A stretch of 64,000 bases of DNA, from assembly GCF_008180155.1 (NCBI RefSeq), contig NZ_VSZS01000056.1:62001-126000 (forward strand), given 5' to 3'. The position numbers and the translations under genes were made by a program. The notes below the pieces were generated by a model. That model did no database searches, was not told where the DNA came from, and saw only the letters and a list, made by a program, of their open reading frames with translations. This DNA comes from Neoaquamicrobium microcysteis (GTDB lineage Bacteria; Pseudomonadota; Alphaproteobacteria; Rhizobiales; Rhizobiaceae). This document shows positions 7,531 to 9,024 of the stretch, one piece after another; the first letter of the stretch is position 1, and every line of letters starts with the position of its first letter.

Positions 7531-8067
7531 TCAAAGGGTTCTCGTGCCGCGTGAGACGGCGCGTGCCAGCATCCCCGTCACCTGCGCTTCGGATTTGCGG
7601 AAGGATGCGGCGTCCTGCGTCGTCACGTTGAAGACCACGTTCGTCGGCGCGCCGGCGCGGCTCCCCTCCATTGGCGCGCCTTGCATGTTCTGGCCGATCG
7701 CGGCGGAAACAGCCGCTCCGCCCGCTGCACCTATCGCAGAGGCCGAAGGCAGATAGCTCGGCGCGGCAAACCCTCCTTCGGTGAGGAAAGGCAGCCCGCC
7801 ACCGCCGCCCAGAAAGCCCGGCAACAGCCCCGAAATCAGGCCCGAAAGCGGGCGCAAGCCCATGTTCAGCGCCATGCCGGCTAGGTTGAGGCCGATGCGC
7901 TGAAGCACCTGCTCCAGCGAACGGCCGTTCACGACGGCGTCGCGCAGCGCGCCGGTCAGCTGTCGGCCGAACGCATCCGACAGCGATGCCAGATCGTCCA
8001 GCGCCGCCGTGAATGCCTGCGTATCCACATCGAAGCGCACTTCGATGGGCTCCACGCCGTCGATCAT
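7531..8067 (-). CDS. Short tail tape-measure protein of the GTA (g11)
   Basis: This 178-aa protein starts with an acidic beta-like segment (VEPIEVRFDVDTQAFTAALD). An amphipathic helical part follows, then a glycine-rich hydrophobic stretch around residues 75-125 (GLISGLLPGFLGGGGGLPF) that resembles the membrane-active segment of tape-measure proteins, and finally a tail with VVFNVTTQDAASFRKSE. GTA tape measures are far shorter than phage ones because the tail is short, and this one fits. The start lies 2 bp after the g10.1 stop. By family it determines tail length and may assist DNA passage through the inner membrane. Confidence 0.88.
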   Translation of the reverse strand: MIDGVEPIEVRFDVDTQAFTAALDDLASLSDAFGRQLTGALRDAVVNGRSLEQVLQRIGLNLAGMALNMGLRPLSGLISGLLPGFLGGGGGLPFLTEGGFAAPSYLPSASAIGAAGGAAVSAAIGQNMQGAPMEGSRAGAPTNVVFNVTTQDAASFRKSEAQVTGMLARAVSRGTRTL

Positions 8068-8069
8068 CT

Positions 8070-8285
8070 TCAGCCCCCTTCTCTCGTATCGGGAAACATC
8101 GTCATCAGCCTTTCCAGCACAGGTCGGCGCAGGGGCTGGCCCGCGCCGAACGCGCGCAGCACGTGCGCAAGCTCACGCGGCGTCGTCGCCCAGAAATCGC
8201 GTGGGGAAAGCCGCAGCCGGCCCAGCCCCAGGGCGATCAGCTCGTCCCAGGGAAACTGGCGCGTCGTGCCGGTTGCGGCGTTCAG
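8070..8285 (-). CDS. GTA tail assembly chaperone-type protein (g10.1), non-standard start
   Basis: This 71-residue reading frame contains FPWDELIALGLGRLRLSP followed by FWATTPRELAHVLRAFG, the signature of the small rcc01693-like proteins that follow g10 in GTA clusters. No ATG, GTG or TTG exists at a sensible position. The frame can begin only with a CTG that overlaps the g10 stop as CTGA, or be entered by a -1 slip of the ribosome at CCC-C-TGA, which would give a g10/g10.1 fusion of about 183 residues. The family assignment is good and the mode of translation is open. It ends 2 bp before the tape-measure start. Confidence 0.8.
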   Translation of the reverse strand: MNAATGTTRQFPWDELIALGLGRLRLSPRDFWATTPRELAHVLRAFGAGQPLRRPVLERLMTMFPDTREGG

Positions 8286-8620
8286 GGGTCCGGGCGCGTT
8301 CCGTCGCCTGCGCCGAAGGTCACTTTCAGCAGGTCGACGGCGATGGCGGCAAAGCCCGCGATCCCGCCTTCAGTCGTCATCGTGGCGACGTCGCCGTCAC
8401 TCACCGCAGCGCCGCCGCCGCGCAGGCCGGCGGCCACCACCCGCGTCAGGTCGCGGGCCGACAGCCGCCCCGTCGAGAAGCGCTGCGCCAGCGCCGCGAG
8501 GTCTTCCACCTCGAAGGCGGCTTCCAGTTCGGCCAGCGCGCCCAGCGTCAGGCACAGCACGCGCTCCTGCCCGTCTATCGTTGCGGCGATCTCGCCGCGT
8601 CTCCTGTTGGCCATCGTCAT
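8282..8620 (-). CDS. GTA_gp10 family tail assembly protein (g10)
   Basis: This 112-aa protein has the GTA_gp10 pattern: an N-terminal ANRRRGEIAATIDGQERVLC, then TLGALAELEAAFEVEDLAAL and SARDLTRVVAAGLRGGG. Family proteins sit between the major tail protein and tape measure and probably act in tail assembly, like phage tail assembly chaperones. The start overlaps g9 by 4 bp. The last sense codons read GAC CCC before TGA, and this CCCC run lies at the junction to g10.1. That makes it a candidate for programmed frameshifting as known in many phage assembly-chaperone pairs. Confidence 0.9.
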   Translation of the reverse strand: MTMANRRRGEIAATIDGQERVLCLTLGALAELEAAFEVEDLAALAQRFSTGRLSARDLTRVVAAGLRGGGAAVSDGDVATMTTEGGIAGFAAIAVDLLKVTFGAGDGTRPDP

Positions 8621-9024
8621 GCCGCCGCGAAGCTGATGGAGCCGGCCGATTCCAGCGCGATCTCGAACGTCACCTCGCCATCGTGGTTGCCGGTGTATTC
8701 CAGCGCCGTCACCTGAAACGGCCCTTCCACCGTGCCGAAATCCGGTATCGCCAGCTGCCAGGAAACGATCGTCCCGGCAAAGAAGCCGGTGCGGATGAGC
8801 GCGTCCGACTGCGCATCCTTGAAGATGCCCGCCCCGCTCAGCGAGGCGCGTTGCACGCCGGCTCCCGCCAGCAGTTCGCGCCAGCGCCCCGCAGAATCCG
8901 CGTCGGTCACGTCGACCGTCTCGCTGTTGAACGCCAGCCGCTTGGTGCGCAGCCCCGCCACCGTCACGAAGCTTCCGCCATTGCCGATCTTCAACAGAAG
9001 ATCCCTGCCCTTCTGTGCCACCAC
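8617..9024 (-). CDS. GTA major tail tube protein (g9)
   Basis: This 135-aa protein is of the TP901-1/phi13 major tail protein type. Characteristic parts are GRDLLLKIGNG at the N-terminus, the AFNSETVDVTDADSAGRWRELL motif in the first third, and a beta-rich remainder ending VTFEIALESAGSISF. It starts with GTG at 9024, chosen because a near-perfect AAAGGAGG ribosome-binding site lies at the right distance, one of the strongest in the cluster. That fits a protein needed in many copies. A 53-bp gap separates it from g8, otherwise rare in this tightly packed operon. Confidence 0.92.
   Translation of the reverse strand: MVAQKGRDLLLKIGNGGSFVTVAGLRTKRLAFNSETVDVTDADSAGRWRELLAGAGVQRASLSGAGIFKDAQSDALIRTGFFAGTIVSWQLAIPDFGTVEGPFQVTALEYTGNHDGEVTFEIALESAGSISFAAA

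Follow-up and report, generated by a model that had tools for sequence, protein, structure and literature searches.

The tail chaperone genes of the window and their junction

We analysed a 64,000-nt stretch of the Neoaquamicrobium microcysteis genome (contig NZ_VSZS01000056.1, positions 62,001 to 126,000; hereafter, the window), the minus strand of which carries a gene transfer agent (GTA) head-tail cluster. In the gene order, PF06199, PF11836, PF09550, and g11, the tail tube and the tape measure are separated by two small genes. The first of them, g10 (8282..8620, minus strand, 0 frame), encodes a tail assembly chaperone of 112 aa and scored 105.8 bits against PF11836, Phage_TAC_11 (cut-off, 27.8). 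The second, g10.1 (8070..8285, minus strand), contains the second tail assembly chaperone domain and would be read after a slip from the CTG at 8285 as 71 codons plus a stop; these 71 codons matched PF09550 with 65.5 bits (cut-off, 23.4), and g10.1 matched TIGR02216 (rcc01693 family) with 56.0 bits, just under the cut-off of 56.1. Two nucleotides after the g10.1 stop begins g11 (7531..8067, minus strand), which encodes a short tape measure protein of 178 aa; its score with NF058675, the model of the RcGTA tape measure, was 58.1 bits, under the cut-off of 220, and the g12 homologue scored 283.4 bits against TIGR02217 (cut-off, 136.65). The cluster is of the RcGTA type, with g10, g10.1, and g12 homologues all over Pfam/NCBI cut-offs; it is a diverged relative of RcGTA, and by its NF058675 score g11 is no equivalog of the RcGTA tape measure. 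RcGTA itself carries homologous genes in the same order, g10 and a second tail chaperone, named tail chaperones 1 and 2 in the relevant passages of PMC11409702.

At the junction, g10 ends with GAC (8290-8288), CCC (8287-8285), and TGA (8284-8282) on the minus strand, as the preliminary description of this DNA had read it. The g10.1 frame is -1 relative to g10 and is open from stop to stop over 99 codons (8369 to 8070). No ATG, GTG, or TTG occurs in this frame ahead of the conserved domain, which bears out the earlier remark that such codons are missing near its beginning, and the sole near-start is the CTG at 8285-8283, overlapping the g10 TGA. A slip back by one base at CCC into CTG would join 112 and 71 residues into a fusion of 183, the length estimated earlier. 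The putative slippery heptamer is G_GAC_CCC (8285..8291, minus strand; A_AAC_CCU/C in its family form), on which tRNA-Pro can re-pair with CCC after a -1 slip. The g10 TGA (8282..8284) falls within a 5-nt spacer (8284-8280), and the 5' arm of a stem, GCCGCAACCGGC (8268..8279, minus strand), begins exactly 5 nt past the heptamer. The 3' arm, GCCGGCTGCGGC (8210..8221, minus strand), lies where g10.1 encodes its GLGRLRL motif and forms 11 of 12 pairs, with one A.C mismatch. The shift point is inside the interval 8270-8300 first assigned to the feature, and the signal extends 60 nt further, to 8210. Folding of the window strand gave -43.4 kcal/mol (z -2.93), an energy that 3 of 200 shuffles reached, and an Rfam search of positions 7900-8700 returned no match at E up to 1.

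Candidate slip site, stem, and upstream match in related clusters

Of the genomes sampled, 104 of 151 in the same family, 186 of 297 in the order, and 45 of 385 in the class contained PF09550; these draws overlap in part. Family loci were read in 101 of the 104 genomes (three with only weak hits, and second weak hits, were left out); class hits provided 29 new loci, and order hits provided 29 new loci plus 80 picked for family spread. A scan of named genomes contributed the best 80 loci of 370 relatives, and viral contigs 80 of at least 470. With 24 loci retrieved by an RNA model excluded (L291, L321-L343), 399 loci were analysed; one (L289) lacked a nearby g10, and removal of junctions more than 90% identical reduced the remaining 398 to 349 unique loci. 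The g10.1 frame was -1 relative to g10 in 313 of these, +1 in 24 (including L090, which was counted as +1 and is probably mis-framed through an upstream indel), the same frame after the stop in 11, and fused in 1. In the viral contig locus L258, g10 and g10.1 form one continuous frame; the fusion may be natural, or a single base near CCCCCTTTAG may be wrong. The -1 offset was present in 94 of the 101 loci of the window's family, and the same-genus locus L094 also reads GGACCCC-TGA with CTG; because of this identity and the shared offset, a sequencing error in the C run, which the preliminary description had considered, is unlikely.

The usual g10 end in the family is A_AAC_CCT_TGA. An in-frame X_XXY_YYZ heptamer near the g10 end was found in 114 of the 191 unique -1 loci that have no ATG/GTG at or after the stop, compared with 25.2 in codon-order shuffles (sd 4.6; maximum over 300 shuffles, 37) and with 8 of 191 in a control region of equal size further up g10. 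Most of the occurrences were AAACCCT (56), CCCTTTN (25), GGGAAAG (13), or AAACCCC (11). Where ATG/GTG does stand at or after the stop, 29 of 122 loci had a heptamer (shuffled 8.0, sd 2.7). Elsewhere in g10 of the AAACCCY loci, A, required before AAC, occupied the third codon position in only 459 of 6059 codons, and CCT accounted for 4 of 42 other proline codons. The family heptamer was retained with TAG or TAA stops, where no UUG is formed, and also where the stop lies several codons downstream. We considered the adjacent stop as a component of the mechanism and rejected it: CCY followed by a stop is common, yet 17 of 60 AAACCCY loci with the stem have no adjacent stop. The preliminary description had asked whether relatives conserve CCC-C-TGA along with the missing start codon: start-codon absence and CCC-C/T recur, CCC-C-TGA is a local variant of A_AAC_CCU, and the stop need not follow directly.

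Only the CCC half of the window's own heptamer re-pairs perfectly, and tRNA-Asp on GGA would form one G.U pair and one mismatch. The host genome has a tRNA-Pro(GGG) gene, the product of which would read CCC. G_GAC_CCC is common to the window and L094. Of the near relatives, Mesorhizobium sediminum (L103) has GGACCCT and the Aquamicrobium MAG locus L102 has CCGCCCT; the invariant core is C-CC-C/T. An AT-richer relative (L101) carries AAAAAAG, a highly slippery heptamer in E. coli, immediately before the g10 stop. Transcriptional slippage was set aside as improbable, since four consecutive C residues are generally too few for it.

The stem of the relatives has up to 12 bp and begins exactly 5 nt past the heptamer with GCCGCAG or a variant, and its 3' arm mostly falls in the codons of the GLxLRL motif of g10.1; certain loci use a nearer inverted copy with the same 5' start. 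When the stem was searched first and no heptamer was required, 93 of 254 unique loci had at least 11 of 12 pairs, and of these 85 were in the g10 frame and 82 had CCC-C/T exactly 5 nt upstream. Conversely, at least 10 of 12 pairs formed in 96 of the 136 unique slip-site loci among the 254 unique loci at that stage, and at least 11 pairs in 84 of the 136, compared with 6 of 91 start-codon loci, for which the best upstream complement was taken. Mean pairing was 9.86 at a spacer of 5 and at most 6.62 at every other spacer from 0 to 15. An 8-nt arm with every base paired stood at offset 5 in 79% of 90 AAACCCY loci (2-11% at offsets 12-20) and in 62% of 26 non-canonical NNNCCCY-stop loci, but in only 19% of 26 CCCTTTN loci, and in GGGAAAG loci the arm peaked at offset 9 (55% of 11), not 5.

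Pairing was specific to each locus's own arms, the inner seven pairs averaging 5.49 with their own arms and 4.50 (sd 0.068) with swapped arms, and none of 2000 swaps was as high, although the 3' arm lies within conserved codons and the pairing is thus partly non-independent. Compensatory arm pairs included GCCGCAGATGCA/TGCATCTGCGGC, GCCGCATCCGTG/CGCGGATGCGGC, and GCCGCAGGACGC/GCGTCCTGCGGC. Covariation was measured on 43 gapless-aligned loci, all selected to share a single loop length and to form 9 or more of the 12 pairs. Of the cells, 92.2% were paired (shuffled, 87.6; 0 of 500 reach it), and covariation was 0.174 (shuffled, 0.106; 0 of 500 reach it; slid controls, at most 0.098). The four pairs changed on both sides in this set were not outstanding, as 26 of 500 shuffles reached that number and a slide by -2 equalled it (5 pairs and 15 cells versus 14). 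An unguided consensus fold recovered the outer seven pairs, to which covariation itself contributed little (-0.19 kcal/mol), and for single stem positions the supported pairs were too few for a relatedness-controlled test to decide. Our own RNA model, R1, matched its own genome once at E up to 1, where 150 out of 11137 first-look candidates had been scored; within the window, a second, weak match was the opposite strand of the same stem. At E 0.01, R1 matched 23 of the 297 genomes from the order and 4 of the 385 from the class, far below the number of stem loci found by the direct test, and these counts are unfit as a census because the model holds one loop length and few candidates were scored per genome.

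A third element lies upstream. Within the 3-15 nt that precede the heptamer, we took the strongest pairing with the 16S tail and compared it with codon shuffles. This anti-SD match exceeded the shuffles at AAACCCY (68 loci; -6.99 vs -4.87, sd 0.24), CCCTTTN (24 loci; -9.40 vs -5.90, sd 0.52), and GGGAAAG (11 loci; -8.41 vs -4.87, sd 0.69), with a peak 8-10 nt upstream of the heptamer in all three groups. Other heptamers (11 loci) were not clearly above the shuffles (-5.80 vs -4.71, sd 0.89), and the 87 start-type loci showed no excess (-3.17 vs -3.40). The match in the window is weak, at best -3.5 kcal/mol at 4-7 nt upstream.

From these comparisons, the two genes are very probably a tail assembly chaperone pair of the lambda type whose junction is a programmed -1 frameshift signal. 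The preliminary description had proposed this reading, which gains strong support from the conserved slippery site, the covarying stem at a fixed 5-nt spacing, and the average upstream anti-SD match in relatives. Its statement that such a junction is unusual for a GTA does not hold, since 72 of 101 loci of the window's taxonomic family have the stem plus a slip site or the A_AAC_CCY heptamer. The window's heptamer and upstream match are below the family norm, as would be expected if the gene had decayed or been misassembled, its start lost and its protein not made; however, the g10.1 domain still scores well above its cut-off, 11 of 12 stem pairs are intact, L094 combines the identical heptamer with 12 of 12 pairs, and the -1 offset is held almost throughout the family, so that we give decay next to no credence. 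The window copy is a weaker version of the signal, which we judge to be active, though perhaps with lower efficiency.

Start codons and further probable slip sites

Under the rules used, the 349 unique loci comprised 144 with a signal only, 112 with an ATG/GTG start only, 35 with both, and 58 with neither; 112 of the 170 unique loci without a recognised signal thus have ATG/GTG starts, and in 78 of the 112 the start overlaps the stop as RTGA. The two genes of the pair are thus separately initiated in some lineages, which gives some weight to termination-reinitiation, in which ribosomes would restart at the CTG overlapping the TGA in the window, or at UUG in many relatives, and make g10.1 as a separate protein. 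CCCTTGA does provide a UUG as the first -1 codon past the heptamer in 31 of 114 loci, and the anti-SD energy at this would-be UUG (-4.23) is not weaker than that at the starts of start-type loci (-4.42), a value that by itself does not separate the frameshift and start readings. However, 88 of the 144 signal-only loci have no ATG, GTG, or TTG in the interval that opens 30 nt upstream of the g10 stop and closes at the domain; the first -1 codon past the heptamer is elsewhere TTA, TCC, GCC, CGG, or others; and heptamer and stem are kept in the 17 of 60 loci without an adjacent stop. Moreover, with its peak 8 nt ahead of the heptamer, the anti-SD match precedes the would-be UUG by about 14 nt, a spacing poor for initiation. 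A CTG start coupled to the g10 stop, the alternative offered in the preliminary description, is accordingly disfavoured; we consider reinitiation improbable here, and a start-codon reading was rejected as the general mechanism on the basis of start-codon inventories and upstream anti-SD energies.

Both products might also be made, a frameshift fusion together with minor free g10.1 from coupled initiation. The 35 loci with a signal and a nearby ATG/GTG would suit this arrangement, but the window has no ATG, GTG, or TTG ahead of the domain, and we regard it as less probable still than reinitiation alone. The loci with a signal and an ATG/GTG near the stop (L029, L037, L145, L150, and 31 more unique loci) perhaps reflect dual expression, a transition state, or chance.

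Lineages differed in which state they carry. Start-type examples were named in Afipia, Rhodopseudomonas, Devosia, and Kaistia, and signal-type examples in Aurantimonas endophytica, Aminobacter niigataensis, Tianweitania populi, a Nitratireductor, Mesorhizobium soli, and M. sediminum; two further Mesorhizobium-labelled loci (L108 and L160) were start-type. The gene tree required at least 31 changes between signal and start states, although it is poorly resolved and the true number may be lower. When relatedness was controlled on supported branches, the trade-off between start and signal had one direction in 4.8 of 19 pairs and the opposite direction in 0.2 (median p 0.06), which agrees in direction only, phylogenetic controls being weak on such short proteins.

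Among the 58 loci with neither state, g10 ends inside the g10.1 domain in 31, and 22 of these carry CCCTTT just past the limit used. In these 31 loci, which have no start or upstream heptamer, the Pro-Phe codons of g10.1 read CCCTTT in 22 of the 24 having Pro-Phe, whereas start-type loci did so in just 6 of 63. The same geometry showed an anti-SD match of -9.70 compared with -6.09 in shuffles (sd 0.44), with its peak 12 nt upstream. CCCTTT at these two codons is probably a second -1 site type, and it occurs also outside the order. The g10 stop lies 19-43 nt beyond the beginning of CCCTTT in the 22 loci, which include L265, L266, L269, L281, L288, L299, L306, and L414-L416. Other g10 genes end with GGGAAAG (L352-L354, L371, L372, L386, L272, and L344), which we take to be the heptamer of phage lambda; in loci of this group the upstream anti-SD match is strong, and the stem at offset 5 is absent.

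Proposed mechanism and known systems

We propose that most ribosomes would stop at the g10 TGA and release the 112-residue protein, and that the GC-rich stem, 5 nt downstream, would stand at the mRNA entrance while CCC is decoded. A fraction of ribosomes would slip by -1, with tRNA-Pro re-pairing on CCC, and continue through CTG into g10.1 to make the fusion of 183 residues. If the pair works as lambda gpG/gpGT does, coating of the tape measure would fall to the short form, and recruitment of the tail tube protein to the g10.1 part of the rarer fusion; with these two roles, the slip rate would set the ratio of the proteins. We infer the occurrence of slippage, its rate, the role of the fusion, and the activity of the window's weaker copy. 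On balance, we lean somewhat toward a broader view, in which a conserved cis-acting RNA with no Rfam match controls the ratio of the two chaperones in GTAs over much of the Alphaproteobacteria. In this view, selection has maintained the RNA in a domesticated virus, where it would have been rebuilt on three or more different heptamers and repeatedly swapped for a separate start, so that the pair would alternate between a fusion at a set ratio and two free proteins.

The -1 frameshift of the lambda gpG/gpGT-type tail assembly chaperones was reportedly described by Xu, Hendrix and Duda in 2004. The locus resembles that system in having a pair of small genes between tail tube and tape measure, in a second gene that is -1 and startless, in a putative slippery heptamer at the end of the first (in the window, one with perfect re-pairing only in its CCC half), and in the GGGAAAG heptamer of certain relatives of the window. 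It differs from lambda in the relatives' main heptamer, A_AAC_CCU/C; in the covarying stem with its fixed 5-nt spacing and a 3' arm in a conserved coding motif; in the average upstream anti-SD match; in its location in a GTA; and in the existence of other lineages with ATG/GTG starts instead. The dnaX-type bacterial -1 signal has three parts, namely an anti-SD match about 10 nt upstream, a heptamer, and a stem about 5 nt downstream; the heptamer and the stem have counterparts here, and so, on average in the relatives, has the anti-SD match. Unlike dnaX, however, the gene and the heptamer are different, the stem of 12 bp encloses a large loop (mostly 46 nt) rather than forming a small hairpin, the shift would yield a longer and not a shorter product, and the window has little upstream match. 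Although its stem does lie 5 nt downstream, we did not class the window copy as dnaX type because its upstream anti-SD match is only -3.5 kcal/mol.

Tail-chaperone frameshifts are well known, and passages of PMC5009743 describe the lambda gpG/gpGT type. A tail chaperone frameshift at AAAAAAC is given for phiCbK in part of PMC3556154, and the portion of PMC8601537 on R. capsulatus phages implies that most of them show the usual signal. The nearest precedent is in passages of PMC10299305, which suggest that a GTA may be among the Wolbachia WO particles and name gpGT and gpG as tail chaperones of that phage; the frameshift reported there is a +1 shift in a hydrolase. A term look-up in PMC11409702 on RcGTA found no mention of frameshifting, and frameshift terms had no match by look-up in PMC7296036; PMC9765227, PMC3711429, and PMC10783043 were also covered and gave no RcGTA report. 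Within the literature searched, mostly titles and abstracts, no report of a tail-chaperone frameshift in RcGTA-type agents was found, and an earlier mention is possible. Frameshifted tail chaperones are already known, then, and it is the RcGTA-type instance that was not found reported in these sources.

The signal would explain a gene that has no start codon and is truncated to an internal ATG in two annotated phage records. It points to translational control kept in a domesticated virus, as evidence that such agents are still built under selection, and the lineages with a signal and those with a plain start offer natural pairs for testing the need of a fixed chaperone ratio. The two phage records, MW091529 (L424:1105-1263) and MW462191 (L425:949-1128), contain AAACCCTTGA and the arms GCCGCAG/CTGCGGC, and in both g10.1 is annotated from an internal ATG that cuts off the conserved FPW start of the domain.
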